Assembly: GCA_003990745.1 (NCBI GenBank)
Contig: RBNI01000341.1
Span: forward strand, 1-33,141
Origin: Jimgerdemannia flammicorona
Taxonomy: Eukaryota; Mucoromycota; Endogonomycetes; Endogonales; Endogonaceae
DNA length: 33,141 nt
Direction: 5' to 3'
The notes under the pieces are model-generated. The model was not told the origin of the DNA, did not search any database, and worked only from the letters and a program-made list of their open reading frames with translations. The position numbers and the translations under genes are program-made. This document shows positions 2,001-24,096 of this stretch, piece after piece (positions within the stretch are counted from its first letter, which is position 1; each line of letters begins with the position of its first letter).

Positions 2001-2016
2001 GAGAATACTGGAATCC
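2001..2016. repeat. Left 16-bp target-site duplication of the 6.2-kb insertion
   Basis: GAGAATACTGGAATCC occurs here and again at 8208-8223. The flanks outside the two copies belong to one gene reading frame on the minus strand. The sequences inside them are unrelated. Confidence 0.85.
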
Positions 2017-2161
2017 GGGGGGAGGGAGTGTGTCGGGGTGGGGTAGGGTAGGGTGGGGTTGGGTTGGGGCTACCGGTGTGGTATGAGGACCTTGTGTTTA
2101 TTATAGATTAGTTAATAAAGGGGCCTAGTGCTCATGAAAAAAAAAAAAAAAAAAAAAAAAA
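2017..2161 (+). repeat. G/T-rich left end plus inner poly-A (2137-2161)
   Basis: The segment opens with GGGGGGAGGG and repeated GGGGT / TAGGG-like words to about 2070, then about 65 bp of unique sequence and 25 A. It looks like a very short, 5'-truncated poly-A element of its own. With the outer poly-A at 8171-8207 it gives the insertion two internal tails on the same strand. Confidence 0.5.
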
Positions 2162-3512
2162 CAATAATAATAGCCAGGTGGCTTCTAGCCACCGCGAAAT
2201 ATTTCCCAAATGACTTTCCAAGATGCGAAGACACAACCCTGCGAAAGTCTAAAGGTATTCACAGAGAGATTTCGGCGGTTCGTCACTGCAGCAGGGTGTA
2301 GAGAGGCCGTGCAGTGCGTTCACAGCAGGATGCCTTGTGGCAGTGGGGGGGAGGTAGGGATGTTTATGGCAGTTTGTCGATACAACAGGGAGTAGAGTGT
2401 GGGGGGACAGAGGGGAATGAAGGAAAGAGTAGTGTGGCGCATGCCATCTCGTTAGGGGCACGTGCCTCAACCCGAATCGAGGCCTTGTGGAACGACGATT
2501 AGAAAAAGCGCGGAGGCTCTGAAATGGTATGAGACCGCTAGAAATACATCTCGGAAGGCTATGCACGGACTCCCCATATAGTTGTAGTATTTTTAGTGGT
2601 AATATTACGTATAAATACTGGATCCATAGAATTGCATTAAAGGGCAGTCTGAAATCTGGAGTAAGTAGCGTGCATTCAGCAGGGATCGGACATCCAAGGA
2701 ATCCACGTACGATAGGTCGCTTTTCAGGCTCCTCCGGTGGCTCTAAGACACATTTCATAGTAAAATCGTTAGCAAACCCGTCCCGATAGATCCAACAATG
2801 CCGTATCACGTGACGTTTTCGGCATCTGGATATGCTAATTAATACCATACAAGGGATATCTGCTTGCATCTGAGTCCAATTTTCCAGTCAAGATACAATG
2901 GGAGCAGATGCGCCCAGAGCAGATACCAGAAAAAAATTGAAGTGATGCTGGATGGACGGGGTGATGCTCTGCTTGATTTCTGATGACATTTTTGTAAGAA
3001 AGAAGTGTGGCGAGTTTGTCAATAGAAATCTTGGTGAGAAAAGGAGGTCTCATAATAAATCAGTGTCAAGTTGTCAGTAGCCTTTGCGAGTTTTGCCGTT
3101 TTTTGAGATGAATTTGCCTTGAACGACTTATTTTAGCATACACGTATATACATCGATTGGCGGTCTTTCTTGGGCCTCAAATAACCATTGGCAATAAGCT
3201 TTTCGGACTGTATTTGTTAGTGCCCCGAACGTGCCCCGTTTCGATCGGGACGTCCCGTTCGTGGAAAAAAAAAATACGTCAGCGACGTTCTGCCAATGGT
3301 CGTCGTTCTGCAATAATCGATTTGTAAACGGAACCAATAGATGTCGCCGTTTCAGAAAAACCTTGCTCGCGTTCATTCTGGGCCTCTCTCCAGAGATTCT
3401 CAAGCATATCAACGGTGACTACGCAGTCGACTGTCCGACCCCGTGGAGTTATTATGTAAATGCGTTTCCGTCTTGGGAAGTTTATTACGATTTGAGGCTA
3501 ACTAATGACATA
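2162..3512. other. No convincing gene; small hairpins
   Basis: Open frames here, up to about 206 codons at 2249-2869 on the minus strand, have no recognisable domain and no intron or codon pattern I trust. Inverted repeats are visible at 2177-2193 (GGTGGC, 5-nt loop, GCCACC) and around 3225-3262, including the palindrome CGGGACGTCCCG at 3246-3257. Their role is unknown. Confidence 0.4.
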
Positions 3513-4880
3513 TTAATCATCCTTAATGTCCTTCAAGATGGGAAAGTCATTTACATATTTTCTGTAATCGTCGTCGAGTTTACGCCAACTTGCTATCGAA
3601 TCTTGTAAACTTGTCGCATCAAATTTAGGAACTGGTGACCTACGGATATTGTTAAAACATTGTCGTATTCCTTCCATCTCCTCAGCCTTTTCATTCCAAA
3701 AAAACTGTATCTGCTTCAGAGTTTCGTCTATTTCGTAAAGGAGTACGGAGGAAACATTGGCCACATGGAACCGTTCCCGATACTTTAAGACGTCAGATAA
3801 CACTTCTATATTTGTGGAGAAATATATATAGGTCATGACATTCAGATCACTGACGCCTCCAGGGTAGTTACAAGCTACGAACGTAAAAAAAATTATACTT
3901 GCCTCCAGTTTTCTCAGCACGCGAATTCAAGAGATAATGGTAAAGAAAAACTCCCCCGCCTAGGATTAAGGCCCCACCTCCCGTTCCAACTGCGACAGCG
4001 GCAACAGTACCAACCCCTAAAGCGTATGGTTTGGAAGCTTCAAGCGTCCTGGCCCCCGTTGTCAAACTTCTTGATTCACTCTCTAAATTCTTACTGCTGA
4101 TGAGGAACTTCACACTCTGGTTGGTGAAATTCGTCTTGTGGTTTTGGTTTGCCTTATCGATATCTTCCAAGGTATGGTACATCTCTTTGGCATCTTTGCA
4201 TAGCCTTTCAACAAGGTCTGTATAGAAATCCAGACGTACTAAAACCTCCGAGAGTACCTTGGGGTCTGCAAGGAGTTCCAGAGTATCCGCAATCACCTGG
4301 AGAAAAATATGGTAAATCAACGTGTTTCAAACAATTCTATTCAATGTAGATTAAAATTAATACTCATAATTATCATATATATACCTTGGACGATGTGGCA
4401 CAGCGCTTTGCCAATGTCACTGTTTCAGATATCAGCTTTCGATAATTTTTTTCGACCAGAGCCATGATATTGGCTAACTCCACTTCGGCTGGGCAATTGA
4501 CCTTCTTGTGGTCTTCTAAAAACTTCAAAGTTTTACTAACTTTGGCTTTCATATCTGTGAAATCATAGGTCGAGGTATTGGGAGCACTCTCCGTTCTGTC
4601 GGGCGTAATCACCATCAGAAAATATACCTCGATGGTGGAATCAGACTCAAAGACGTCAATTCATCGGTGGAAATAGCAAAATACCTGACCGTTTCATCGT
4701 CCTGAGTATTCGAATCATGGATCAAGGTTTCGAGAGCATCCTTTATTCTGTCGGGCGTATTGTATTCATCATCAGAAAGAAGTACCTCGATGGTGGAATT
4801 AGAACCAAAGACGTTAATTCATCGGTAGTGATAGCAACATACCCGGCTGCCACATCGTTCTGAGTATTGCTTCGAGCCAT
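3513..4880 (-). CDS. Predicted helical pore-former-like protein, component 1 of a divergent pair
   Basis: Minus-strand gene with proposed exons 4880-4786, 4747-4628, 4595-4385, 4296-3899 and 3849-3513. All junction phases agree, giving 386 codons plus stop. Introns are 38, 32, 88 and 49 nt; the first two are unusually short. If they are not real, the start could be the ATG at 4615. The N-terminal part holds two copies of a motif (TTDELTSLVLIPPSR and STDELTSLSLIPPSR), one per duplicated exon. Long amphipathic helices follow, then a Gly/Ala-rich hydrophobic segment at about residues 232-265 (VGTVAAVAVGTGGGALILGG within it) and a C-terminal helical region with W-x3-DDDYRKY. Helical bundle, central hydrophobic hairpin and about 390 residues fit the general architecture of ClyA / HBL / xenorhabdolysin-type alpha-pore-forming proteins. 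That link is by architecture only. It has no signal peptide. A similar-looking gene runs divergently at 5781. Confidence 0.55.
4596..4868 (-). repeat. Tandem duplication of an exon-plus-intron unit (about 115-121 bp per copy)
   Basis: The stretch 4596-4710 recurs at 4748-4868. Each copy contains the same acceptor end (CTGTCGGGCG on the plus strand), a short intron and the exon encoding the DELTSL...LIPPSR motif. The reading phase is preserved across both copies. Confidence 0.75.
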
Positions 4881-5780
4881 GAGATTCGAACAGTATGTTG
4901 AAATTGCCAAGATGGACAAGTAAGCAATCTGCTCACGAATCGCGCAAATCAGGGATTTGTGCATATCGGTGAAACCTTCATGACAATTGTGTAAGTATTG
5001 GTGTTGCAAACATATGAGGCGAAGTTTATTAAAAGTACTTTATGGTATCTGGATTGGTTCCTTTTTTGAAAAATTTCATCTCATATGTGAGATCCCGAGC
5101 GAGGTGACTATTTCCCGTTTCCCACACCACTTTGAGAAGTTCCTATCACGCCATTTTGCAAAACATGGAGTATACACCTGATGGTGTCTTCACAGGACTG
5201 AAACACGCTGCTGTATTAATTTCTACCGATTCATACACACCGACGCGAGCTAAGGAGATAATATATCAATGTCCGTTTCCTAGGTATAGTTGTATTTTCG
5301 GAGGTGAAAAATTATTGTCCACCTGATATGCTTACAAAACAAAGGGTCAACAGACTTCATATTGTAATTGTTTGGGTGGGCAATTGATTTCATAAACAAT
5401 ACGGTGTCATAAACGGAGTCGCGTTTCTGCTGACGCCCGATTTTTGCATATTGCACAAGTTGACAAGTACAATACTCCAACAAATGAAGTTAGATCATGA
5501 GTGGGAGTAGTTTATAGTAGTGTTTTGGTGCTAAGAGATTGATCAACTATTTGAGAGATATATCTCTCCTTGTCCCATTAGCTCTGTCAATTTTTCTTTT
5601 GCTTGTTTCGGAGTAGTATGTTTGTATGTTTGTGGATAAATATTTGGTATGCATGTGAAACGGGACCCGTGTACAATATCTTCGATTAGCATCTTACATA
5701 CTTTGCTGCTCCCGGATATATTCCTTTCTCATGTTTTCTCATGTGAAGATTGCTTTTGGAAGACTATACTCATTAATAAC
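4881..5780. promoter_or_regulatory. Shared upstream region of the divergent gene pair
   Basis: This 900-bp gap lies between the starts of the two divergent genes and should contain both promoters. I see no TATA box I would defend. A perfect 16-bp palindrome, GAGAGATATATCTCTC, sits at 5553-5568, about 210 bp upstream of the plus-strand start, and could be an operator-like site. Open frames here look like chance. Confidence 0.35.
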
Positions 5781-7005
5781 ATGGTCATATCCACATTCCC
5801 TGAATACCAATTCAATAATTCACCAGCACAACTACACGTTATGATGAGCAATGATGTGGTGCCTGTCCTCGGTGGTGTTGTCTCGACGTCCAAAATCGCC
5901 ATTTCCGATCCTTTTCATACACTTCAATTTAATCCCAACGACCTTCCGAACTTTTTACTGCTTCAGACTGCAACAGAAAACACGATCAAGTTACTTGACG
6001 AATTCGCGACGTCAGATATCTCTGCTTACCGATTGATCATCTCCGAACAGGCAAGGCGCCCTGAAAGCCTGGCTATATCATTCCGTCAGTTCGCACTGAG
6101 CACCACCGACAAGGCGTTAGGCTGGGCGTTGTTCGCTAGGGAGGTCCAGACGCATGCCGAAAACATCTATACCGAGGTCAACTCCCTTACTGATGTGGCC
6201 GAAACCGTCAAATGGATGGCCGAGAGAGCTGCGGCTGAAATCAAACAGATCAGAGTGTCACCAATGAAATCCGCCGTGGGTTGAAAGCGTTGCGGAATTC
6301 TGTTTTGAACTCGGAGCCCAAGGAGAACTCTTGGATTCTCAGTCTTAGAAAAATCCCACGCAATGATCTCTTGCTGAGTGCACTGTTCTTTATCGGAGGC
6401 ATGATAGGATACGTAAAAGGAAATATCGTAATTGGATACGCCATCGTAAGTTATCTGCTGCAGTATGGGGATGTGATATATCAGAGTGCATTCAACAAAT
6501 CTTGATTGAATATTGGATATTTCAGTTTTTAGGTACAATCGCTTTTCTCCTGAGCCGTACTTACGAGGCCCCATTGGAAACGCAAAGCCTGGAACAAGGT
6601 TAATGTCAATTATCTCTTGAGGCGAGCTTTTTGAATCTTTCTATTGCTTTTCGTTTACTCACAACTGCCCCTTCCCCAGTCGTCAACTTACAAGCACGGT
6701 TAGACCATCTCTCGGAGAATGTCGAGGAGTATTTGGCAAATCTTACAGATGGGTTCAACCAATTCCGCCGTCTGATGGCGACCCTTCATCACAATCTCAA
6801 AGGCATGAGTAGTTTAAGAGATGTAATGGGGGTGGGACGAACCAGGATTCAGATGAGCTCTCTCGTGATCATCAAGGAGCGGTGGGACGATGTTAGAACG
6901 GGTTGGAAGGAGTACGCCGGTGTTGTTACTTATCTGGCTAATCGATCACATACAATTGAGGTGCAGGATGACCAATATACCTCAGAGCAGAGGTTATATG
7001 TGTGA
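5781..7005 (+). CDS. Predicted helical pore-former-like protein, component 2 of the divergent pair
   Basis: Exon 1 starts at ATG 5781 (in-frame upstream ATG at 5649, downstream at 5841). The frame shifts between 6207 and 6281: either a 47-nt intron (6207-6253, weak donor) or a one-base break, so the gene may be damaged. Further introns 6446-6525 (GTAAGT...TTTCAG) and 6599-6679 (GTTAAT...CCCCAG) join in phase, and the stop is at 7003-7005. The product is helical: an acidic/amphipathic N-terminal half containing AREVQTHAENIYTEVNSL, a central hydrophobic hairpin that begins LLLSALFFIGGMIGYVKG and continues across the 6446-6525 intron, then a coiled-coil-like tail with LDHLSENVEEYLANLTDGF and W-D-D-V-x3-W-K-E-Y. 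Length (about 355 codons) and layout mirror the minus-strand neighbour, so I infer a two-part system. Family assignment is by architecture only. Confidence 0.5.
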
Positions 7006-7035
7006 TTCTCTGCCCCCACCCATTTTTTTTTCTTT

Positions 7036-7037
<2 letters not shown>

Positions 7038-7074
<37 letters not shown>
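7038..7074 (-). repeat. 37-nt poly-T directly after the plus-strand gene
   Basis: Thirty-seven T preceded by a T-rich run with two C, beginning about 18 nt after the stop at 7005. Read on the minus strand it is a poly-A tail, so a second small retro-insertion in the opposite direction is possible. Confidence 0.5.
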
Positions 7075-7075
<1 letters not shown>

Positions 7076-8169
7076 GTGATATAAATATAATTTGTTAACA
7101 GATAAAAGTGGTATTATGCAAAAGAGTTTGGTTTCGAATTGTTTTTTCATCGCCAACTACGAGATACCCATGCACTATATTTCACATGAGTTCAAAATAC
7201 ATCGTTGTGCGATCGGGTTGAATTTATATATATAAATCTGGCAATATTAAAATAAGTAACTTGTATATAAACCAAATAACTGATAAGCAGGAAATGTAGA
7301 AGAAAAATCAAAGAAATATAATACCGAATATCTGGAGGTTATTCGCCGTTTGAGAATTCACGTATAAAGCTTGGAATTACGTTGTACTTAGAAATAAAGC
7401 AAGAAATGCGTTGAAAGAGACATTATGTAAACGGGTTAATCGCCAATAAGGGGTTGCGTGAATGTCCCGTAATGTTCAAAAAAGTTCCATTTGCTCACCG
7501 CAGTATTCAAACTTGTCATAGCGTCGATCGTCGATATCACTAGTCCAGTCGGCGTCGTAAGAGCCGGATAAACGTTTATGTCGTTTGTTACGGATGTCGT
7601 TATTACGGATGCCGTTACTCCCGCTTAAATCGTTGTCGTTTCGGAGGTTGTTTCGGGCTTTTAGGATTTTTCGGACTTCCTTAGCTTGACAGATGTATCC
7701 GCCGGAGTTGCGGAAGGATTAATGCGCAGGCGTAGGTTACATGCCGTAGTTGCGAACTTTGTTTCGAACTCTAGATTTGCGTCCATTTTTTCGGCTGTAT
7801 AGTTCGTATGGCTGCCATGTTGGCCTTTGCCATTATCTTCACGCTGTTTTGACCTCTGTTCTCCCTCTCCTTGCGATAACAATCTCGCTCGCGATGTTTG
7901 CAATATCAATAAAAATGCCGCTTTTTGTCAAAAAATATATAATCACAACACATTACAACAGAAATATATAGTAAAGTAAACCTTAGATTTAGATAAAATG
8001 CAGAGGAGGAGGAGGGTAATATAAAAAATAAGTATAATTATACAGAAAAGATACAGTAAGTAGAATATATCAATATAGTAAAAATGACAAGTATAGAAAT
8101 AAAAAAGAGAAAAATCAGAAATATACAAATGTACCAATATAAAAAAGAAAATTCACATTTACTATATTT

Positions 8170-8170
<1 letters not shown>
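7075..8170. other. AT-rich stretch, no gene seen
   Basis: No frame with recognisable content. Around 7590-7620 there is a 15-bp near-repeat (TTACGGATGTCGTTA / TTACGGATGCCGTTA). The stretch is bounded by inverted homopolymers, 37 T on the left and 37 A on the right. Confidence 0.4.

Positions 8171-8207
<37 letters not shown>
8171..8207 (+). repeat. 37-nt poly-A at the right end of the insertion
   Basis: Uninterrupted A37 immediately before the right copy of the 16-bp repeat. Tail directly abutting the target-site duplication is the expected 3' end of a LINE-mobilised insertion. Confidence 0.8.
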
Positions 8208-8212
<5 letters not shown>

Positions 8213-8223
8213 TACTGGAATCC
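8208..8223. repeat. Right 16-bp target-site duplication
   Basis: GAGAATACTGGAATCC, identical to 2001-2016. Confidence 0.85.
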
Positions 8224-8698
8224 ACCTGGTCCTTTGGCACCCCATCGTCGTCAGACAAAATCGCATCTATCCATTCCTCGTCGTCGGTGTCGCTTGAAGC
8301 TTCAGCTTCCTCCTCGAGAAAGACATTGGCATCTAACTCGTGCTGGACAACCACCGAGGACGAACTCAACTCGGAGTCACTTTCATTGCTGTTCAACATT
8401 TGTTGGCCCACACCGTTCGTTCCAGCTTGTCGTTTTGGAGTTGGGCTGTTGTCTGAATCACAGAATCTCTTCCGCGTGTTTTCGTTGCGAGCTGCCGTCC
8501 ACTCGACCTATTAAAAGTTGGTTCATTATGAACGAATTATCCCTCAATGCTGCTCAATTCCATGTAAGATTTCAACTTACTTGCGCCAACGAGTCCTTTG
8601 CTATAGCCAATATCTCCTGTTCCTTGAAATATCGGTGTTTTCTCTGTGCCGCGGCAAGCGTCCACCATTCACGAACCTCTTTCGAAATTTTCTTCTTC
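8208..8698 (-). pseudogene. 5' part of the gene split by the insertion
   Basis: Minus strand. An exon of about 8698-8581 encodes a basic, aromatic stretch (EVREWWTLAAAQRKHRYFKE) and ends at donor GTAAGT. A 73-nt intron (8508-8580) follows. The next exon runs 8507-8208 in phase 0 and encodes ENTRKRFCDSDNSPTPKRQ, a Ser/Asp/Glu-rich acidic region (SDTDDEEWIDAILSDDDG) and then VDSSIL, where it enters the duplicated 16 bp. The identical 16 bp at 2001-2016 continue in the same frame into NEPDITGKDGG. The two halves are therefore one gene. The true first exon was not identified: the sequence upstream of 8698 has no in-frame ATG, and the end at 8698 may be an AG acceptor. Confidence 0.65.
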
Positions 8699-8786
8699 AA
8701 ATTAAAAACATAAAGAGAAATATATTTCAGCTCCATAAAAACAACGGTAAATCTGAAGCTATCATATCAAGTGTGCAAACAGTTGT

Positions 8787-8954
8787 ATGCCCAAGACGGC
8801 GTTCCATCCGGAGATGCCATATCTCAAGCATACTGCTAAAGAGATTGTCTTGAAGCCCGACCTGCCATCCGGTGTGATCGGTTACAACCTGGCCACATGC
8901 CCAAGACGTACTGCTAAAGAGATTGTCCTGAAGCCCGACCTGCCATCGGTGTGA
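8787..8954 (+). pseudogene. Fragment of an unrecognised gene with internal duplication
   Basis: ATG at 8787 opens a 55-codon frame whose motif TAKEIVLKPDLPS occurs twice (starting at codons 16 and 42). It comes from a direct duplication of about 60 bp at about 8830-8875 and 8908-8960. The second copy runs out of frame into TGA at 8952. Codon use looks like real coding sequence, but I do not recognise the family. It is probably the start of a gene broken by local duplication. Confidence 0.35.
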
Positions 8955-9006
8955 TCGGTTGCAGCTTTATGACACTGATCTATCAAGAAAATTACACACC
9001 CGGTGT

Positions 9007-9248
9007 TTATTGAGAGCAGTCAGAGTACATCGCAATCTTAATAAATTCGTCATCTGCTTTATCTTTTACAAGATCCTTGCATCGGGAAATAATGGCTTCT
9101 AGTGCTTCATGAAAGTAGTTGTGCCATCTGGTCCATCTGTCTTGGAGTAATCTGTTTTCTGCGAATAGTTCATCGTTGCTTAACCATGACAGGAAGTCGA
9201 CTTCATTCCATTGATCGGGATTCTTTTTGTTGAAATACTCCGAGAATT
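9007..9248 (-). CDS. Terminal exon of an unidentified gene (partial)
   Basis: On the minus strand a polypyrimidine-rich intron end (TTGTATTTGCAG) precedes an open exon of about 80 codons. It encodes FSEYFNKKNPDQWNEVDFLS, WLSNDELFAENRLLQDRW and a charged helical tail ending at TAA 9007. The acceptor at 9249-9251 and the aromatic/acidic composition support coding. The upstream part of the gene is not clear: a poly-A tract (9295-9312) lies inside the intron and no preceding exon joins in phase. I know no family for it. The gene may be truncated. Confidence 0.45.
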
Positions 9249-9294
9249 CTGCAAATACAAAAGCAGCAAAGGTAAGATAGCTGCTATTCCCAAC

Positions 9295-10661: not shown

Positions 10662-12093
10662 TATGATATGATTTGGTCGACGGAGCCGGTGGCAGTGCAT
10701 GACAAGGAAGAGGCCAATTGGGCCCTGCTATTACTGTATGTTTTTGATCATGTGGTTTGCATTCTATCGCAATTCGTTATTGTTGTTGTTTTCAAAGCAT
10801 ATGTATTCCCACCAATATAACTGTACTTTATTTCTGTGTGCATCTGAGTAGAAAGGCAGCGTAGACGCTCGTATCCCCTTTGATAGATATGTTCCGACAC
10901 CCATTTCCTTCTATTTTCCCCCCCAAGAAAAAACAAAATAAAAAACGAAAAATAGTAAAGTTGGATCCTTGGATTATCGCATCTTTTCAATATGTATGCT
11001 ACCCACATGGATTGGCAATCTCCTAATATCGCATATGGTAATATTACCGGTTTGTCCTCCAACGTTTGACTCCGACAGTGCCATTTTAGATCCGGCAGGA
11101 TACTATTCCTCGCGTGTATCTATGGCATCTAGTGTTTACGACTTTCCCATTTCCTCCTAGATAGAAAGCACATGGCGTTCAAGGCAACCACTTGAATCAC
11201 GTCCCTTGATATTATTCGCCAAAATGAGTGGGGCGATGGACACATGTACCCTATGGCAGGTTAATAAACACGAACGACTTCGAGTGTCTCGGGCCAGTCG
11301 GGTACGTGAAGGGTTTGGGGGAGGGACGATACGGTTACCTTTATAACATTTCTCTATTTTGTAAACCGACAAGCACATCTTTCACCCGGTTCATTAGTTA
11401 TCCAGTATACGAGTTTGCGTTCTCCCTTGGTTTTACAATATTATCAATTTTTGCGAGCGCCGTGCAAAGTTATGCTACCAAGGCATCCCCTTCCTCTTAT
11501 CTTAATCAACCGTTGCGTCATATTCAAGGTTTTGTGAATCATAAATTAGTATCGCTATCTCACTGTAACATATATTTTTTTATGGGTTGTGTGACGACTG
11601 AGACTGAGAAACCTATTTAACTCTCTGATTTGATTTTTTTAATATTTAGAGGAAATAATTTGCCAATTATGTGATTGATTCAAGTTGGTTTGAATTTGTC
11701 CTGTGACAAATTTGAATCATCCAGGAGTTGAATTCTTTATGTGAGAAATTTGAACTGATTCAAATTTTTCATATGACAAACTTGATTCAAACTTGAACTC
11801 TAGTGAGAGAGGCTCTTGGGATTACTCAAACAAGTTGGTCAATAAGCCTGCTGAAAAGGGCTAAAATTTTATAATTTTTTAATAAAACCCCCCCAAAGTC
11901 TCTTCAAAAGTAATATATAAAATAACTACAAAATATAGAAAGTCTGTTAAAGATATATAAAATATCTACTGATTTCTCTTTCTTTTCTTTTAAGTTTCTA
12001 AAAAAATTTATTGTAGCAATATATAGCCTTTAAAGTTCTATAACAAATACTCAATAATAGGTTGTTTAAAACTTCCTCATTCTCTATAACTAT
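10662..12093. other. Intergenic transition zone; no gene recognised
   Basis: An open frame at 11228-11620 (+) has no recognisable features. From about 11640 the sequence becomes AT-rich and almost free of CpG. Imperfect TTGAATTTG / CAAATTTGAA words recur in both orientations at 11690-11800, probably the remnant of an old repeat. Confidence 0.4.
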
Positions 12094-13664
12094 TGTTACA
12101 TAGTGGTTGCTGAGTCCTTCAAATATGCCAGATTCTCTTCAAGGTGTATCTCTTAGACTAATCAAGTTTGTTATAAGCAAGTTCTTATTGGAGTGCCTTC
12201 TCAAGATCTTATAGTCCTCAAACTTCTTATCTTTAAACTGTCTTATTATCTCTTAGATTACTTGTAAGGAAGTATGTATATTGCACTAAGTAGACTAAGT
12301 GGACTGAGTAGACTGACTTTATTTCAGAGGAAATAAGAGGGGTATTTATACAAAATATAATTCAATGGTTGCTAAGATATAAAGCTAAATATAAATTCTA
12401 ATAACTAAAATAAAATACTAGGACAGAAAAAACTACTAAGTTCCAGTGTCAGTACTGATGGTTGTATAGATTTAAGATATTGGTATAATTCAGTATTACA
12501 TCAGAATGCTGGTGCTGGCATTCTTTAGTATCACATCAGAATGCCAGTACTGGTATAATTCAGTATAACCAAAGGACTTTTAGAGCAGAATGTTCAAGAC
12601 CATAGGGGCTTCATCTTTATCAGAGGTCAGGATGTCTTTGAAAGAAATGAGATCTGCAAATTTGTCATCATTATATAGGTCATGTATTTCATATATATCA
12701 CATGTTTCACATATATTACGTGAGATGACATTATCACTAATAACATTATCACATTTGGCAGTAGCAGGAACAAGGAGGTCTGGGGCTCTCTAGTCTATAA
12801 GGTTCTCTTCCACAAAATAGGGGACAAATGTGGGATCTTGGGAAGATCTAACCTGGATACTTGGATCTTAGAATACTGAGATCAATCCTTGCAGGAATTG
12901 GTCTGGGTTATCCTGGAGGATGGGATACCAGAAGTCTTCTACTTCATCACTATCAAGAGTGATAGTAGACTGGACTTCTGTAGCCACCCTGGCTTCTAGT
13001 GCATTGATACAGTAGACTGACAGGTCTCTGAAGTCTGAGACTCTAACATACTCTAAGTTAGGGATTGACTATGGTATATACCTGAAGATCTGGTGAATCT
13101 TCTTAGCTGTTCTTGTCTCATGTATATCTATAGAAGTGGCATCTTGTAACTCTTGAGGGCTGGTCTGTGGGAACTCCCAGCAGAGGAAGTTTCCTATTTT
13201 GTACTCCTGCTATATTTGGAGATATTTGATAGCAATGGTGATCCTTGTTTCCATTTCACAGCAATAGAGGATATAATGATAAGGGTCACCAGTACCCAGG
13301 TTAACACTAAGAGTTCTTCTTGAGCAGGTCCTCATGGCTCTTCTAATGTCTTGGAATATCTTTTCTTCAACTGAGGTATCTTAGTGGTTCCTTGATCTTG
13401 AGATTTGGCAAGCAGCAGGCATTTTGTTTGTAGTAAGTCTTTGAGCTATTTTGGGATTAGTGGGTCTTATTGGTTGCTACTACTGCAGTTCCTTAATCCT
13501 TCTTTTATATTCCTCAAGATACCCATACTGTGGTTACAATGACTCACAGTTGGTCATCATTACTCATCTTATATACCATATGATCTTCTTGTGCTCCAAT
13601 CTGGTGGCTTGTAAGAAAAGGCTGTCTCCTATGCTGATGTCATTATTCTGGAGTCACTGTTACA
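12094..13664 (-). repeat. Element 1, 3' LTR
   Basis: It is homologous over its whole length to 19349-20920. It starts TGTTACATAG and ends CACTGTTACA on the plus strand, forming the usual short inverted TG/CA ends. About 1.57 kb is long for a fungal LTR; part is taken up by a decayed reading frame. Confidence 0.9.
12585..13370 (-). pseudogene. Decayed reading frame inside the 3' LTR
   Basis: The minus strand carries the same coding frame as the 5' LTR copy (19836-20620), with stops at different codons. Shared blocks include YVRVSDFRDLS, DNPDQFLQ and SFKDILTSD. This copy has stops at, for example, the positions where the other reads Q or W, and is open where the other has TAA and TAG. Confidence 0.55.
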
Positions 13665-13674
13665 TCTTCCTCCT
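13665..13674 (-). other. Element 1 polypurine tract
   Basis: On the minus strand AGGAGGAAGA directly precedes the 3' LTR, the expected position of the plus-strand primer. Confidence 0.7.
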
Positions 13675-13679
13675 GAATA

Positions 13680-15130
13680 AGGATCTACTCAAGTATCCTT
13701 ATTTATTGGTTCAGTCCTGAAAAAATTGCTAATCCTATAACCTCTGACAAGAGATCAAAAAGTGATGTTTATAGACTAGCATCTTCTCTTTGTATTTTGG
13801 TATAATGGTGAAGAGTTACTCCCTTCATATAGAGCAAGGGCCTGATTCTAATCTTAACCAATCAGTTGATGGTTCAAACTCCTCTGGCTTTGAAAGTCTC
13901 ATAGATGAGTATTTTCTAGTACTGTATCTCTTAGAGAATAATCCAGACAGATAGCCTGCTGGTCACAGGACATGCTGTTATGATTCGTGGACTAGAACCT
14001 TGCAGGTGGTCATCATATTTTGCTTCTCTTGTATAAGTTCATAGTACTTCTTGAGTCTGTTCCTATGTACCATGGTAGGCAGTATGGTCCTTGAGATTTT
14101 TCTAAGCCAGAAGGCAGTTTTCTTGATATGTTGCACATAGAAAAGTTCTTCCTATTTGGGCTCCAGTTTTCATAATCATAAGGCTTCTATCATATTTCAA
14201 TACAGTAGGACCTTTTCTCCAATTTGGATGAGTTCTAGGGTCTTATAATTCTTTTCTGCATTCTTCCTTATCAGTGCTTGTGACTTGATGATATAATCTT
14301 CAGCCTTCTTCCTGATTTGGTGTAGTCTCCAGATTTCTGCATCAACCCATCTCCAAGTTAGGTCTAGATTTGTGACTAAGGTTCCATCAGAATCTTCTTC
14401 TCTGAAGAGCAGTTCTCTTGGGGTAAAGTGTGTGCTCTGTGACCATATGTCTCATAGGATAGAGAGAGCAGTTGGGAGATAGTTAGTCCAATTCTCATAT
14501 GTCTCTGAGATCTTTACCAGGATGTTCTTGAGAGTCTTGTTGATTCTCTCTATCTGTCCATTTCCTTGAGGGTGGTATGTAGTAGTCTTGATGTGCTAAA
14601 TCTTGTATTTCTGATATATTATCTTATAGAATCCATTGATAAATTCTGTACTGTAGTCTGTTGTGATTTGCTTTGATGTCTTATAGTGGCAGATGATTTC
14701 TCAGTACAGGAAGTTAGCTATAGAGAGGACATTGGCTTCTTGTAATGCTCCTGCTTCTATCTATTTGGTAAAGAGGTCTACAATAACTATAATATAGCAG
14801 TTTCCTGATAGTATTACTGATAGTGGCCCAATAATATCTATTATGATGTAGTGGAAGAGATAGACTCAATTCTTGATGATCTGGGTGCCTGGTCTTACTG
14901 ATCTTGTTTCTGTTTTTGGTACTTGTCACACTCTTTGACAAATTGGTACAGGTCTTCTTCTATTTTAGGTCACCACATGGCTCTTCTTGCCTTGACATAT
15001 ATGTTGGTTCCTCCTTGGTGTTCTTGCTCATATACTTTCTTCATTACTTGATACTTCTTATGTTTGAGTATTACTAGCTTTCCTTCTTTTCTGAGCATAG
15101 TATTACCTAGTTCAAACTATTTCCAAGTCT
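13680..15130 (-). pseudogene. Element 1 integrase
   Basis: The N-terminal zinc-binding part reads VYEQEHQGG...KECDKYQK; His and Cys of the HHCC set appear replaced by Tyr at one position each. The catalytic core follows: DIIGPLS, then TTDYSTEF, then YHPQGNGQIERINKTLKN, supplying the D, D and E of the DD35E triad. Several TAG/TGA/TAA codons and frame changes interrupt it. The domain is last in the polyprotein, next to the polypurine tract, as in Ty3/gypsy elements. No chromodomain was recognised after it. Confidence 0.75.
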
Positions 15131-15289
15131 GGTTGATGATGGTAATTGTCCAGGGTTCAAGGTAGTTGGGCATCTTCCACTGCACAAGGTAGCTGATTAA
15201 TCCATAGTATAACTCCTTATTCATGTTGAAATAGTCTTGATGGAGGTATTTCAGAGTGTCCTTGAGAGTGCATCAGCATTAGTGTTGGT

Positions 15290-15703
15290 TCTTCCTGAGC
15301 AGTACTTGACAGTACAGTCATACTCTTACAGCCTGTAGATCTATCTGGTATATATTTCTTTGAAGTTCAGAGTGTGGAATAGCCAGGTAAGAGCAGAATG
15401 GTCTGTTTGAATAGTGAAGTATTTCTCAACTAGGTAGTAGTGGAACTTGTCTACTGCCCAAACTACTGCTAAGCATTTGAGCTTGCATAACTCATAGTTC
15501 TATTCCACTCTATGGGTACCTTGGCTTGCATAGGAGATGACATATTCATGTCCATCTTTCTTCTGAGCTAGGACTGCTCTAAGTCCTATAACACTTGTAT
15601 CTGTCTGCAGGATGAATTCTAGGTTCCAATCTAGTCTTCTGAGGATAGGTACTTGAGTCAACCTGGTCTTGAGTTTATTGAAGGTTTCTTGGTATTCTTT
15701 GAT
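15290..15703 (-). pseudogene. Element 1 RNase H domain
   Basis: Downstream of the RT core the minus strand reads LEFILQTDTSVIGLRAVLAQ, the usual opening of the retroelement RNase H (D with the following TSD-like turn), then QTDHSALTWLFHTLN near its end. A stop precedes the block at about 15704 and two more follow. It would remove the RNA strand of the hybrid during reverse transcription. Confidence 0.7.
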
Positions 15704-16620
15704 CTATTTGAATTTGGTTTCCTTCTTCAGTAGCTCATAGATAGGTGCTGCAATATTGGAGTATCCTTTGATGAATCTTCTGTAGTAGCTGGCCAGTTCA
15801 AGGAAGATATGGACTTCTGTGGTTGTTCTGGGTCTTGGGTAGGCTGCAACAGCCTCAATCTTTATAGGGTCTGTGTGGATTCCAGTCTGGTTGATGAGGT
15901 GTCCTAGGTAGGTGATTTCCTGAACTACAAACTTATATTTCTTGGGCTTGATATAGAGGCCATACTCCTTGAGCTTCTTGAGAGCAAGCTGTATGTGGTT
16001 AATATATTTCTGTGTAGTATTGCTAAAGATGATCACATCATCAATATAGACAAAGAGCCATTTTCCAATCTCATTACTGAAGACTCTGTTCATCATTCAC
16101 TAGAAGCTTGCTGGGGCATTACATATTCCAAATGACATTCGCAGATAGATATAAGTGGTATTAGATATGATAAAGGCTGATTTCTTACTGGTATCTTGAG
16201 TGAGACCAATCTGATAGAAGCCTGAAAACAGATCCAAGGTGGTGTAGTATTTGGCTTTACTTCCAAGAGTGGTAAGGATTTCTTGAATATTTGGCAAGAG
16301 CTACCTATCCTTCTTGGTGATGGTATTGAGCTTCTTGTAGTCAATGCAGAGTCTTGGTACAAACTCTCCAGGCTTGCTTCCTTTCTTTGGGACAAGGACA
16401 ATGGGTGAAGTCCAGGGACTGATAGCTTGCTTAATGATTCTGGCTTCTTCTATTTCCTTGAGTTCTGCTTGTAGCCATTCTCTGTAGGCAGGTGGTATAT
16501 GTCTGACTTTCTGATAGATGGGCTTGGTATTGCCAATGTCAACTTCATAATAGTACTTGAGTTCTTAATTATAGATATTCCTAAAGTCTGTAGCAAGTAC
16601 TCCTTCATTCTGATGCAGGA
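15704..16620 (-). pseudogene. Element 1 reverse transcriptase
   Basis: The minus strand encodes SPWTSPIVLVPKKGS, LCIDYKKLN, TTLDLFSGFYQIGL, FGICNAPASF and, after stops near 16096, KWLFVYIDDVIIFSNT. YIDD is the catalytic box and the D of TTLDLFSG is the third metal ligand. YGLYIKPKKYKF...ITYLGHLIN and LELASYYRRFIKGYSNIAAP follow, as in Ty3/gypsy RT. Two stops in the 16090-16100 region and one near 16310 break it. The dUTPase lies immediately upstream. Confidence 0.88.
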
Positions 16621-16734
16621 TCTTGAGAAGTTGTTCTTCCAGGGAAAAGTTTTCTCCAATAGTATATATGTACTTGTTCTGGTCCCTGTCTTTCTTGTAT
16701 TCAAGTTTAGTAATCTTAGTGGCAGTATAGACTC

Positions 16735-17115
16735 CTCTTCCAGTAGATCCAAAGCCTTGTTCTCCTCTCTTGGTCTTGATGAGTTTGATGACTTCTATGA
16801 TCTTGGGCTTTTTGATTTCGTGGATCAGCATCTGGCCAATCCTGTCATACTTCTTGACTTTGAATGGAGTGATGGGGTTGTGATTCCTGACTATGAGAAA
16901 GATCTTGCCAGTGTAATCAGGGTCAATTACTCCTCCTTCAACTGAGATTTTGCTTTTGGCCAGACTGCTCCTGGTCTTGATAATTCTGACATGGTTCTCT
17001 GGCAGCTTGACTCCAATTCTAGTGTCAAGTAGGGTGGTAGTCTGTGGTTCAAGGATAGTATCTTAAATGCTGGCAAGATCCATTCCTATGGCTCCTTCAG
17101 TCTTGTATTCTGGGA
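16735..17115 (-). pseudogene. Element 1 dUTPase domain, five motifs present
   Basis: The minus strand between protease and RT encodes the five conserved dUTPase motifs in order. Motif 1 is GAIGMDLAS (near 17080). Then TRIGVKLPENHVRIIKTRSSLA contains motif 2 (RSSLA), followed by motif 3 GGVIDPDYTGKI, motif 4 DRIGQMLI and motif 5 RGEQGFGSTG (near 16740-16770). From just after motif 1 to motif 5 there is no stop; a single TAA follows motif 1. dUTPase hydrolyses dUTP to dUMP and keeps uracil out of new DNA. In retroviruses it sits either in pro or between RNase H and integrase. Placement between PR and RT is different. Confidence 0.85.
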
Positions 17116-17159
17116 TCTTGGCTTCAGGGTAAAACTTCTTAACCTTAAGGGTGATGTCT

Positions 17160-17500
17160 GATTCTTATTCCTCCTCATCATCACTATCAGCTTGAAGCTT
17201 GGGGGGCTGGTCATTTTCTTTGGCTTTCTTTTTTGCTTCAGTGGCTTCTTGCTCATATTTCTGTTGGCAGATTTTCCTGACTTCACTGATACAGGACCAG
17301 CAGTCATTCAGATGTTCAGAGCAGTACATCCTAGTACCATAGGGGCATCTTTCTTGAGGGGCATAGCCATCAATGATCTTGTTGTACCACTGCTCATCTG
17401 TGAGCTTAGGTGTCTTGTTCTTGTTCTTGTTCTTGTTCACCAAGTGTATGAAAACTTCTGTATCCTTCTCATCTTCTTCCTTCATATTGGATAGAACTCC
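17160..17500 (-). pseudogene. Element 1 linker between protease and dUTPase, Cys-rich
   Basis: An open frame of about 106 codons contains NKNKNKNKTPKLTDEQW, a cysteine cluster (ERCPYGTRMYCSEHLNDCW, then CISEVRKICQQ) and an acidic end (ADSDDEEE) before a stop next to the dUTPase. The spaced C-x6-C-x6-C-x2-C pattern could bind a metal. I know no named domain for it. Confidence 0.45.
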
Positions 17501-17529
17501 TTTGTGGACATTAATAGAGACTCATACCT

Positions 17530-17968
17530 TTCTTCCTCTATAGTTGATCTGCATCTTCTGAGCATTGAGGTCAATGATAGCCTTGGCCTTATGAAGCTAT
17601 TGGTTGCTAATGAGAATGTTATAGTTGGTGGTGCTTATAACAATCACATCTACTGGGATGGTAGCTCCTCCTATCTTGATGGAGACTTCTCAGATTTTGC
17701 CAAAGGGGGTAGCTCATGTACTATCTACTGTAATATAGACCATCTTGATGGACTCTTCAATGTCCCAACCTAGGTGGTCAATTGTCTTCTTGCTCATGAG
17801 GCATCCTCTAGCACCAGTATCAATGATAGTATCAAAGATACAATCTTTGATCTGACATGGGGTATAGGCTGATGTCTTATACTGGCCTTCAGATTCTTCC
17901 TGTGCATTGTGAGCTTCTACAATCTTGTACTCTTGATTCTTGGCAGTAGTTGTAAGTCTTACTCTCAA
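17530..17968 (-). pseudogene. Element 1 aspartic protease
   Basis: The minus strand reads CIFDTIIDTGARGCLMSKKT: DTGA is the catalytic triplet of retropepsins. After a stop, GGATIPVDVIVISTTNYNIL and KAKAIIDLNAQKMQINYRG match the second half of such proteases (flap and ILG/W-like core). One expected Trp is a TAG. It would process the Gag-Pol polyprotein. Confidence 0.78.
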
Positions 17969-18099
17969 TTGCTGTCTAAAGGCAGAGACTTTGGCTAGCT
18001 GTCCAAAAGTAGCATTGACCTTCTGTTTCTTAAGGTCCTTGTAGATATCATACTGATGGATCTTGGTCTTGTGTAGCTTCTGTTCCTTCTTTCTTTTGC

Positions 18100-19300
18100 T
18101 TTCTCCTGAGACTGGAGTAGTGTCTTCAATGATTTGTCAAGCAGCTTCATCTAACTCCATGTCTTGATCAATCTCCTTGGGTTGAGTCTTGCTTTGAATG
18201 GTGACAGCTGGGATCTTCTTTGGTCTTCCAACTGGCTTGCTGTTGCTCTTTTTATCATAGGACTTGGACTGGGTTCTGGTACCATCAGTAGCAAGGTAGA
18301 ATTTGAGCTCCTTATAGTATTCTTCATCATCAGTATCTTCAATCTCCTTGATGACTACTGCATTGGTTTGTTCTCTAGTTCTGCTAGCATTGCTTGGTTG
18401 GGCTTTGCATCTTGTTTCAGTTATACAATTCTTTGTATAGTGGCCTTCTTCTCCATATCTGAAGTATGTGATATTGCATTCTTCTGTAGCAGCTACAAAT
18501 CTCTGCACTGGTCTCCTGTTGGCACTTCAGACTTCTCTAACAACATCACCAAGGTGTACAGTCATCTCAGTGAACTGCTTGATAAGTTCCTCCACTGGGT
18601 CGGCTTTGACTGTCTTGGGGGTAGGTGGGGTTGGTTGTCTGTTTACAACTGTAGTAGGTATGATACTAGTTGGCTTTGATGGCTCCATATTAATGCCAGT
18701 TATTTTTTCCATTGAGTATTCGGTAGGGTGTCTGGCAGTCCAATATCTCTGTACAAAGACCACTTTCTGATCAAGGGTCAGTGTGGTTGGGGTAGACCAG
18801 ATTGCTAGGGCAATTTCAGAGTGAACTCTTTTGAGAAAGATTGAATCTGCTATTTGTTTCTTAAGGGCATCATTATAGCAAGCCAAGACAATCTGGTGGC
18901 AGATTCAGATATAGAATGAGTTGGAATCTTCACTAAGTCTCTGGCAGATAGTATTGAGTTGATCCTTGAGAGCTTGCTTGATCTCTGCAGTATAGTATGT
19001 TGTTCTAAGGAAGGCCTTCATGTTGGCAAGTTTGGCTGCACTATTATCAGCAATAGTGACTATATTAAACTTGTCTCTGGCAGGTCCTCTGAGGCTAACT
19101 GGTAGAAGGGCCAATTGTATATCCACACCAAGAGCTCATATGGTGGCAAATTGTTCAAAGTCTTCAATGAAGATCAGGATTGACCCCCCAGTAGTATATC
19201 TATAGAATGTGGGGGGATATATTTCCATCTTGTCTTGAATTCTTATAGGAGTGACTCTTATAGTCAGAGTAGTTATTGTAGTAGTTGTTCATTTTTCAGC
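18100..19300 (-). pseudogene. Element 1 gag
   Basis: Reading minus from about 19300: KMEIYPPTFYRYTTGGSILI, then a capsid-like helical region (LRGPARDKFNIV, LRTTYYTAEIKQALKDQLNT). A zinc knuckle follows near 18430-18490. Where C-x2-C-x4-H-x4-C is expected it reads YFRYGEEGHYTKNC: the first two Cys are both Tyr, each explained by a single G-to-A change (C-to-T on the other strand, CpA to TpA). A basic/acidic tail follows. In-frame TGA codons near 18905, 18527 and 18137 are at positions where CGA would fit. Confidence 0.72.
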
Positions 19301-19328
19301 TTAAAAGTGAGGGATTCATCTTGAATCA

Positions 19329-19345
19329 CCAGCTAATGGGCACCA
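19329..19345 (-). other. Element 1 primer-binding site
   Basis: TGGTGCCCATTAGCTGG on the minus strand starts 3 nt inside the 5' LTR. Beginning with TGG, complementary to a tRNA CCA end, is the usual form. I did not identify the tRNA. Confidence 0.65.
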
Positions 19346-19348
19346 AGT

Positions 19349-20920
19349 TATTACATAGTGGTCACTGAGTCTTTCAAATATGCCAAATTCTCTTCAAGGT
19401 ATATCTCTTAGACTAACTCAAGTTTATTATAAGCAAGTTCTTATTGGAGTGCCTTCTCAAGGTCTTATAGTTCTCAAACCTCTTATCTTTAAACTGTCTT
19501 GTTATCTCTTAGATTGCTTATAAGGAAGTGTGTATATTGCACTGAGTAGACTGAGTGGACTGAGTGGACTGACTTTATTTCAGAGAAAATAAGAGGGGTA
19601 TTTATACAAAATATAATTCAATGGCTGCTAAGATATAAAGCTAAATATAAATTCTAATAACTAAAATAAAATACCAGGACAGGAAAAACTACTAAGTTCC
19701 AGTGTTGGTACTGATGGTTATACAGATTCAGGATGCTGGTATAATTCAATGTTACATCAGAATACTGGTACTGGTATTCTTCAGTATCATATCAGAATGC
19801 TGGTACTGGTATAATTCAGTATAACCAAAGGACTTTTAGAGTAGAATGTTCAAGACCATAGGGGCTTCATTCTCATCAGAGGTCAGGATGTCTTTGAAGG
19901 AGATGAGGTTCACAAATTTGTCATCATCACATAGGTCACATGTTTTGTGTATGTTGTGCATTTTACATATATTGTATAGGATAATATCATCACTGATGAC
20001 ATTATCATATTTAGCAGTGGCAGGAACAAGGAGGTCTGGGGCTCTCCAGTCTATGAAGTTCTCTTCTACAAAATAGGGAACAAATGTGGAGTCTTGGAGA
20101 GGTCTAACTTGGATGCTTGGACCTTGAAATACTGAGATCAATTCTTGCAGGAATTGGTCTGGGTTATCCTGGAGGATGGGATACCAGAAGTCTTCTACTT
20201 TGTCACTGTCAAGGGTAATAGTAGACTGGGCTTCTGTAGCCACCCTGGCTTCTAGTGCATTGATATAGTGGGCTGATAGGTCTCTGAAGTCTGAGACTCT
20301 AACATACTCCAAGTTGGAGATCGAGCATAGTATATGTCTGAAGATCTGGTAAATCTTCTTAGCTATCCTTGTCTCATGTATATTCATAGAAGTAGTATCT
20401 TGTAACTCTTGAGGACTGGCCTGTGGGAACTCCTAGCAGAGGAGGTTTCCTATTTTATACTCCTACCATATTTAGAGGCATTTGGTAGCAATGGTGATCC
20501 TTGTTTCCATTTCATAGCAGTAGAGGATATAATGATAAAAGTTACTAGTACTCAGGTTGATACTAGGAGTCCTTCTTGAGTGGGTCCTCATGGCTCTTCT
20601 GATGTCTTGGAACATCCTTTTTTCAAATGAGGTACCTTGGTGGTTTCTTGACCTTGAGATTTAGCAAGCAGCAGGCATTTTATTTGTGGTAAGTCTTTGA
20701 GCTATTTTGAGATTGGTAGGTCTTATTGGTTGCTGCTACTGTGGTTTCTTGATCCTTCTTTTATATTCCTCAAGATATCCATACTATGGTCACAATGACT
20801 CACAGTTGGTCATCATTGCTCATCTTATATACTGTATGATCTTCTTGTACTCCAATCTGGTGGCTTGCAAGAAAAGGCTGTCTCCTGTGCTGATGTCATC
20901 ATTCTGGGGTCACCATTACA
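19349..20920 (-). repeat. Element 1, 5' LTR
   Basis: Full-length partner of 12094-13664, ending CACCATTACA before CTAT on the plus strand. Its first bases are TATTAC rather than TGTTAC, consistent with a G-to-A change at the terminal dinucleotide. Confidence 0.9.
19836..20620 (-). pseudogene. Coding frame inside the 5' LTR of element 1, unknown protein
   Basis: On the minus strand a frame runs from about 20620 (MFQDIRRAMRTHSRRTPS...) through three stops near 20430-20470, then open for 183 codons from 20387 to 19836. It includes YVRVSDFRDLSAHYINALEA, DKVEDFWYPILQDNPDQFLQ, FVPYFVEENFIDWRAPDLLV and an acidic C-terminal end near TSDENEAP. The 3' LTR copy is open across those three stops except for one, and has its own elsewhere, so the ancestral LTR probably coded about 250-300 residues. 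It matches no gag, pol or env motif I know. Confidence 0.55.
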
Positions 20921-21781
20921 CTATAGAACTATAAAGTTGATCTGAGTGAAATACTACTATTATATTAAACTCTAAAGAAATCTCAATACTATAAATCAAA
21001 TTGTAGAATAGACTTCTGGATTTGAGGTATACTATCTTTTATATATACTTGATCATATAAAGTAAAATAAATATTATATATATCTTAATCAGTATAGATA
21101 GAAGAACTGGTATACTATTTAAAAAATATATTACTGACTTTATCATATTTTACTCAAACTGAAATTTCTCAAGTTGAAAATATACTCTAGATTAATCTTA
21201 ATTCATTTGATCTTACTGCAATATATTACAAATGATGATTATATGATCTGATGAGAGTATCATAAATGAGTGATATATAAAAAGACAAATAAGATAAATA
21301 AGATAAATATAGAAATGAGATACTAAAACTCCTGAATACTGAAGCCTATATCAGTATCATAACAACTATATTACTTAATCAATATATTATCAAAAATATT
21401 TATTCTGATTATAAATCTAAAAGTAATTATCCTGAATATAAAAGTTATTTATTTTGTAAATAAATAACTAAAGCAGTTATATATCAAATTAGTCATATAT
21501 ACTTAGCTAAAAAACTATAAAATATTACTTAATCAATATATATAAATATCTCAGCAATTATATTTAAAATAAACTAGTTCTTAGTTAAGTATAAAGTTTT
21601 CTCTATATATACTCCTCTAAGTTTCTTAGTAATGAATCCTAAGTTACTCTAGTATTTCTGACTAAACTTTAAAAACTTAGCTAACTTTTACCAGAACTAA
21701 GAACTAGTATATAAATCAAAAATAAAACTCTTTTAAATCTGAATTATAAGAGATTTAGTCTATATATAATATATGAATAAG
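20921..21781. other. AT-rich repeat relic, no gene
   Basis: Very AT-rich, CpG-free sequence with no open frame of note. It continues the target DNA on the other side of element 1 (CTAT duplication), so element 1 inserted into already degenerate repeat DNA. Confidence 0.45.
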
Positions 21782-24096
21782 TTTTTTTTTTTTTTTATAG
21801 TTACTTGGACTTCTACTTTATTACCTGATTATCAATCTATATTATATCATTACAGACTCTCTCTCCCTCCCCTCACCCAATTCTCTAAGAGATCTCTCCT
21901 CTCTTTCTCTCCTCTCTCCCTCTCTCTCTCTATCTTTCTAAAATGCTACTATTCTTCTAGCTACTCCTATTCTTCCTCTACTCTGCTAGTATATTTTTTC
22001 TATCAGTCTTCTATAGAGCCCACCCCCAGGGCCCCACTCCTTCCATCAGTCATTCAAAAGATCCAATATTATCTACTCTCATCTTACCATCTATACTCTA
22101 AGCACTAACTGCTATCTCTCCTCAAATACATACAGCTAATGTCCAGTAAGCCCAATCTAAATAGCCAGCACTCACTTAAGAGTTAACCACTCATCTCCAA
22201 CCCCTCTCACCAGCTACCACTGCAGCTTCCCCCACCTTCTTTCCACTATAGATCCTAGTGGATAGACCTTCAAATAATCTTTAATTACTCTCCAAAAGTC
22301 TTTCACCATCTCACACTCCCCCAACCATACTCTGGGGTCTGCACCACCCTATCCTCCTGTTTGATATTAAAGTACTCTTTGTACTTCAATACTCTCCCAT
22401 TTACCAAATATTCAGACCAATAGTTTAGTATCACATTTTACTATAGGAGTCTCCACTATACTACTCAGAACTTGGGAGAGATCTACCACACTATCTGCTG
22501 GCTCAATAACTATACTTTATTTCAATTTTACTCCTCACCTATCTCTACTCCTTACCATACTGTGGACCATATACTTCTGAAGATACTTTATACTATCCTC
22601 CAGACTAAAGTCATCTATCAGAGTACCTCTCAGCAGAAGGTAATCCCACCTCTATATTCTGGGTCCCCAGTATCTCTCCTTCTCTTGCCCTGCTATCTAA
22701 TGTCTATTCAATATACTCTATCTATTATACTCTACCAGAAACTCTTAAAACACATCTTCTAGCTCTTCTCTAATATTACCAGAGAAAGCAGATCACTAGA
22801 TATGCTATAGAGAGAGAACTATACCTCCCATACTCTCTGCATAAGTAGTACTCATTTATGGCCCCTCAACTCACTAGCTTGCTTTAACCATCATACTTGC
22901 AAGAAATGTGGATACTTAGTGAAGTCTATTAAATCTAGTCTCTTCTGATCTACTGGTAATATTATTACCTCTTAGTCTATCCGACTTCTCTATCCTGCCC
23001 ACATTCAGGTTCTGGCCATCTTCAATAGTCTCTTGACCATCTATGCTGGAAAATTCAAGTGGTACCTCAAATACTACAACTTGAGCATTCAGTACACATT
23101 CAGAACCATTACTCTCTCAGCCAGGGATATGTATAGCCACCCCATCTCAGAAGAGTATTTCCCCATTCTACCAACTACTGCTTCTACTATTTTCAAGGCA
23201 GTAAAGACCCATATTCTGAGAAGTAGATTCCCAGATAATAAACTGTCTCTTTTGCTAAAACCACAGATCCAATCATATCTCTCTCTACTATTTCTCCTTC
23301 TAATACTAGAGTCTCACACTTGTACCAGTTCAGCTTAGTACTAGAGCACTCCTCATACATACTATTATAGCCCTCTTGTACAGCCATATCTTCTATAGAG
23401 CTCAGCCCAACTATCATATTATCAGTAAAGGCTCCCATCTTCCAATTTACTCCAAGAATATTTAAACCCCCCACCTTATATTTAATTCTATCTAGCAGAG
23501 GTTCCAGAGAGAGGGTATAGAGAATTGGTGACAGTAGATCTCCTTGTAGCACTCCTCTGTCTAGGGAAAATAAAAACCCCCTATATCTATTTACTAATAT
23601 TACTACTTGACTTCCCTCCAATAGTCTGATTAATGATCTTCTGAACTCTGGGGGGACTCTCACCCTCCTCAATACCCCTATCAGCCAAACTTGCCAGACT
23701 CTATCATATGTCTTTTTCTGGTCCAGAAAAATGAGCTGCCCATCAACCCCTATAGCCCATGCACTCTCAATAACTCCATACACCCAAGCTATTCTATCTC
23801 TTATCAAATATCCCCTAATAAAGCTCCTCTATTCAGTCCTCAGTATCTGCTATACTACCTCTTATAGCCTAGCCATTAGTATTTTCATCACCAGCTTGTG
23901 ATCTATATCCAAAAATATAATTGGTCTCTAATTTTTCTACTCCTCCCATCTCTTCTTATTCTTAAACAGCAGAGCTACCAGTTCTAGTCTCTGTCTCCCA
24001 ATATACTCTCTGGATCCAATAACCTCATTGCATATCTACATCATTTTCTCCAAAGCCAACTCCACACCTACTATCTTTTTCTAGAAATCCTAAGAT
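21782..24096 (-). mobile_element. 5'-truncated LINE (Tad1-like appearance), RT region
   Basis: A T15 run at 21782-21796 is the poly-A tail of a minus-strand element. Upstream of it (in element sense) lies a degenerate ORF2 with reverse transcriptase motifs. The other end is cut at 24096 by the LTR of element 2, so only the RT and C-terminal part remain. Stops are frequent and CpG is nearly absent. Confidence 0.75.
23193..24075 (-). pseudogene. LINE reverse transcriptase fragment
   Basis: The longest open piece (23807-23193) encodes GQLIFLDQKKTYDRVWQVWL, GVLQGDLLSPILYTLSLEPL and, where F/Y-A-D-D is expected, AFTDN. The catalytic double Asp is therefore damaged (A to T and D to N, both G-to-A type). 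Upstream (23808-24075) RPIIFLDIDHKLVMKIL and RTEQ/IRGYLIRDRIAWVYGV are recognisable with stops. Order and motifs are those of non-LTR retrotransposon RT. Confidence 0.8.

Follow-up and report, generated by a model that had tools for sequence, protein, structure and literature searches.

The segment of the Jimgerdemannia flammicorona contig RBNI01000341.1 enclosed by two copies of a 16-bp repeat, at 2001–2016 and 8208–8223 of the window (the whole stretch of 33,141 nucleotides that was analysed), is a composite locus and not one plain LINE insertion, because the right duplicate does not follow directly after the LINE's own tail but is preceded by a further 6,009 bases and a run of 37 adenines. 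The reading that we tentatively favour, with a probability of roughly 0.45, comprises two steps: a short LINE came first, and a 6.0-kb inner segment later entered the A-run of this LINE. The LINE step taken by itself, that is, the insertion of a short 5′-truncated LINE in an exon of a resident gene, giving the duplication and the broken gene, is very probable.

A preliminary description of this DNA had reported identical 16-bp repeats at both ends, an A-run directly before the right copy and a minus-strand frame running on across the repeat, and all three observations were reproduced. The repeat, GAGAATACTGGAATCC, is exact, and the window has no third site for it at up to three mismatches; as 6 of 100 shuffled sequences also gave two sites under this loose matching, the weight of the repeat lies in its exactness and position. 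At any single pair of positions, 16 matching bases would be expected by chance with a probability of 4e-10, and over 26,841 registers at a spacing of 6207 the longest run of identity was 6 when the 16-bp match and its own suffixes were set aside. The window is free of Ns, and its homopolymer runs are A25 at 2137–2161, T37 at 7038–7074 and A37 at 8171–8207. When the flanks were joined, the minus-strand frame ran on through the junction with 141 codons free of stops, against 33 and 68 codons for the other two frames; the length of this open frame, taken alone, is moderate evidence for one split exon.

The part of the resident gene upstream of the break lies on the minus strand at 8224–9249 and matches the J. 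flammicorona protein P0001 (BC938DRAFT_473564). Stronger evidence comes from the right-hand exon (8226–8507), a real gene part, since 94 of its 94 residues equal those of P0001. The broken exon continues at 1860–2000 on the same strand as the frame open over the joined flanks, and this left half had no relative in the protein database that gave P0001; all the database relatives of the window genes (P0001–P0004) were from J. flammicorona. In the BC938DRAFT assembly, P0001 is called partial, and its end corresponds to position 8226 of the window, immediately outside the right duplicate. This hints, and no more than hints, at a contig that stops at poly-A at the same site in the BC938DRAFT strain; alternatively, P0001 may end here because of a splice-donor-like GT. 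Counted from 8226, the 4,783-base contig of P0001 would reach about 13.0 kb, a point inside a stretch that recurs at 19.4–20.9 kb of the window. Similar stretches are located at 12085–13664 and 19356–20931, around minus-strand frames with RVT_1 and weak aspartyl-protease matches, and by its look 12085–20931 is an LTR retrotransposon. An empty site with a single 16-bp copy, or a paralogue of the resident gene, which the preliminary description had suggested as a check, was not found among the contigs of the same genome: apart from the window halves themselves, the joined flanks gave just two short matches, one of 74 bases with 78% identity and one of about 110 bases with 71%.

The LINE 3′ end at 2017–2136 (plus strand, with AATAAA before the tail) directly abuts the left duplicate and runs into a tail of its own, the A25 detected by the run scan. 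With this tail included (2017–2161), it matched at least 39 other contigs among the 40 of 142 candidates scored, and 29 copies (L008, L010–L037) were compared with their flanks. The 3′ end and the A-rich tail were common to all of them, and the start points differed. Six copies (L013, L022, L023, L024, L030 and L032) had a direct repeat of 10–15 bp, one copy of which adjoined the truncation point while the other followed the tail immediately, with nothing between; in the control, for which the flanks of the 28 other copies were used, no other flank equalled the match in four of the six, one did so for L013 and two for L023. A 16-bp repeat was recognised by eye in L011, where the script had picked another stretch. 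No repeat of 8 or more was found in six further copies, and the best match of each of the other 16 copies either was not flush or did not exceed the control. The sequence of the family extends further in other copies, to at least about 740 bp among the 40 candidates scored out of 540, and in L037 reverse transcriptase (RT) residues 134–210 are encoded at 7–241, on the same strand as the tail motif at 1584 and about 1.35 kb upstream of it, in degraded form (41–47% identity). RT of this kind is common in the genome contigs (150 of 7,487 candidates scored). A SINE reading of 2017–2161 was dropped in view of the family length and the RT upstream in L037. Thus, an RT-bearing family, variable 5′ truncation with a constant 3′ end and A-rich tail, and an exact 16-bp duplication were all found for 2017–2161, and an ordinary LINE insertion at this place therefore explains both the duplication and the broken gene. 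With its LINE 3′ end, poly-A, 16-bp duplication and flush 5′ junction, the locus resembles a 5′-truncated insertion made by target-primed reverse transcription, and it differs from a plain one in the 6,009 bases and second A-run between the LINE tail and the right duplicate. Another LINE, which has RVT_1 and whose 3′ end bears a T15 run, is located on the minus strand at 21782–23828; its tail end differs from that of the 2017 family.

The inner segment (2162–8170), bordered by the A25 of the LINE and the outer A37 (plus strand), is a patchwork of this fungus's own DNA. It starts at a break inside the dispersed repeat R2 (2162–2470), since the nine R2 copies shown (8 loci) continue leftward where the window has poly-A; a hairpin seen by eye near 2177–2193 belongs to R2 in other copies. 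The dispersed repeat R3 follows at 2529–2799, and an old repeat on the plus strand at 7266–8170, consisting of R4 to about 7950 and then of AT-rich R5, has 75–82% identity to its four best relatives. At L002 and L003, which represent one event because their flanks are common to both, this repeat likewise ends at poly-A, with other sequence beyond. A Ty1/copia reading, in which R3 was an LTR and R4 the end of pol, was withdrawn, and both are left without an assigned type: eight frames from L040, L065 and the window had no Pfam match, and the R3 copies stay alike past the supposed LTR end. Terminal inverted repeats of a DNA transposon were not found at the ends of the segment, the 25 longest of 146 inverted pairs being A- and T-runs. 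The T37 run (within T-rich 7023–7074) and the A37 run, equal in length, bracket 7075–8170, which may be chance or a trace of joining.

The divergent pair of intron-containing genes of the preliminary description is present in this segment, with introns in both members, although the plus-strand reading frame shifts near 6254 when compared with P0004, so that this gene is broken or has a sequence error. The minus-strand gene (3282–4964), whose helix-rich product has a hydrophobic stretch, is a relative of BC938DRAFT_479782; identity was 86% over 96% of the query, a figure lowered by gaps where the gene models differ, and 105 consecutive residues are identical at 3561–3875. The same gene has tandem duplicated exon-like segments within 4561–4868 (4625–4710 with 4783–4868, 83%; 4561–4607 with 4713–4759, 77%). 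The plus-strand gene (5781–7008) is related to BC938DRAFT_479783, with 68% identity over the later exons and 76% over exon 1. Spliced over the introns 6446–6525 and 6599–6679, its product aligns with P0004 over the whole length; these two introns bear out the earlier statement that introns are retained in the tail-sense gene, which in this respect does not have the intron loss of a processed retrocopy. The two relatives are taken as neighbours, having consecutive tags and each being located on a 13,788-base contig. The minus-strand gene is near-identical in long blocks to its relative and the adjoining plus-strand gene only 68–76% identical to its own; either a different paralogue in the BC938DRAFT strain or very fast evolution of the plus-strand gene may account for this contrast. 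No Pfam match above cut-off was obtained for the window gene pieces, P0002, P0003 or P0004, the last of which gave 11 weak matches, mostly of coiled-coil types. The structure model of P0004 was poor (mean pLDDT 47.7, all helix), and solved structures gave nothing significant for P0004 or P0003, the match of P0004 to MakE being non-significant (E 0.93). Both genes seem to encode long helices around a hydrophobic stretch (3868–4326, minus; 6239–7005, plus), an arrangement that resembles helical pore-formers and is taken as a lead only.

The set searched for a second copy or source amounts to 134.8 Mb in 7,754 contigs and probably represents only part of the genome; because the contigs appear to be numbered by size (C86, 43,853; C868, 26,202; C7510, 10,240; C7623, 10,131 bases), those shorter than about 10 kb are likely to be absent from it. 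In a review, the Jimgerdemannia genome is given as 240 Mb and the repeats of J. flammicorona as >77% (PMC10386755). Since the contigs searched probably cover only part of the genome, the absence of a second copy is weak evidence. One exon of each inner gene was found once in these contigs. At the DNA level, 3500–7265 gave only A/T-run matches in the 40 of 318 candidates scored, and it has one further match, of 79 bases at 78% (L078), among the loci fetched. A source for 3′ transduction, with the same LINE beside the same DNA, was not found in the 134.8 Mb of this probably partial genome. Note that the search for other copies of 2017–8207 advised in the preliminary description was thus productive for the LINE end, found in the contigs counted above, and yielded no second copy of the inner segment in the contigs searched. 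Among the titles and abstract openings listed by literature searches, none concerned this locus.

In the favoured two-step reading, the first step, which is well supported, would have put a severely 5′-truncated LINE copy of about 120 nt plus poly-A into the resident-gene exon by target-primed reverse transcription, generating the 16-bp duplication. In the second step, an ordinary stretch of the genome, about 6.0 kb long and including the divergent genes and repeat pieces, may have entered the LINE A-run, either as a long unspliced RNA inserted by a nested target-primed event or through DNA-level copying between A-runs in break repair. The kept introns make us lean to the DNA-level route; those in the sense gene speak against a spliced RNA as the source. 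No second duplication is recognisable because both junctions of the inner segment are poly-A, and since A-runs hide second junctions the support for nesting is indirect. The break inside R2 at the left border and the existence of the R5 right border with its poly-A elsewhere (the single event of L002 and L003) argue for two steps, as do the two kept introns. Against them, the LINE was not observed by itself in any strain, the source copy that would be expected to remain after copying was not found in the partial genome searched, and contigs of this assembly often end at LINE tails. With A-runs on both sides of the inner piece, the locus is similar to one in which an older retroelement has received a nested insertion in its A-tail; the difference is that its inner piece consists of host DNA and old repeats instead of one complete element. 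The earlier suggestion that the inner poly-A at 2161 points to nesting or 3′ transduction was the right lead.

Somewhat unlikely, and the foremost of the alternatives, is an assembly misjoin at homopolymers, by which the true site would consist of the short LINE and its tail, and an unrelated A-run-ended 6-kb piece would have been wrongly placed before the right duplicate. Both junctions of the inner segment are A-runs, of 25 and 37, its gene pair was found once in the contigs searched, and the partial P0001 of the other assembly breaks off beside the right duplicate. Additionally, among 68 minus-strand RT matches, which belong to the best 150 of 7,487 candidates with the window included and may favour one subfamily, 30 are separated from the contig start by 0.9–1.8 kb, including 22 at 1.2–1.4 kb; as the latter is the RT-to-tail distance, contigs often stop at LINE tails. 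Yet two misjoins that nonetheless reunite both exon halves would be required, the window is without Ns, and single-base runs of up to 99 in loci of the same assembly indicate that A25 and A37 could be crossed. An assembler length limit at 37 was not supported, the runs of other loci being 12 to 99 with none of 37 (window loci left out).

The insertion of 2017–8207 at once, through a single target-primed event in which the LINE was read through its own tail into the 6 kb downstream of it (3′ transduction) or the RT changed template from a 6-kb RNA to a LINE RNA, is less probable still. It agrees with the single duplication pair that encloses the whole unit, which opens with LINE sequence and closes with poly-A, and with the poly-A end that the R5 repeat also has at another site, as expected of an RNA end. 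In the LINE 3′ end, inner A-run, further DNA, outer poly-A and one duplication pair, the locus is like a 3′ transduction, but it is unlike one in having about 6 kb with unspliced introns and in the lack of a source locus, which should exist, in the partial genome searched. According to a paper on Magnaporthe grisea (PMC2104539), LINEs of that fungus have formed template-jump chimeras (WEIRD, Mg-SINE, MGL) with 14-bp direct repeats, which share the fused parts and the one duplication pair with our locus; in contrast to those copies of transcripts, genes with introns are inside here. An RNA of at least 6 kb, antisense through one gene, would be needed, and two sense introns are kept. The proposal that LINE machinery moved the gene pair and broke a resident gene is supported in its second half only, the LINE having broken the gene and made the 16-bp duplication; its transport of the gene pair is doubtful, the segment lying past the A25 of a finished LINE, keeping introns, starting inside R2 and having no second copy in the contigs searched. 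Origins of the inner segment other than the three considered here are very unlikely.

That a LINE of an early-diverging fungus moved a 6-kb unspliced divergent gene pair in one target-primed event, by read-through or template jump, and hence that genes were transported with introns and promoters kept, we consider quite improbable. If true, LINEs in a repeat-rich lineage could move whole genes with their introns and promoters, unlike ordinary retrocopies, which cannot carry them. On the favoured two-step reading, a short LINE and its A-tail would make a large unrelated stretch resemble a single mobile element, the genome being one in which contigs often end at LINE tails.
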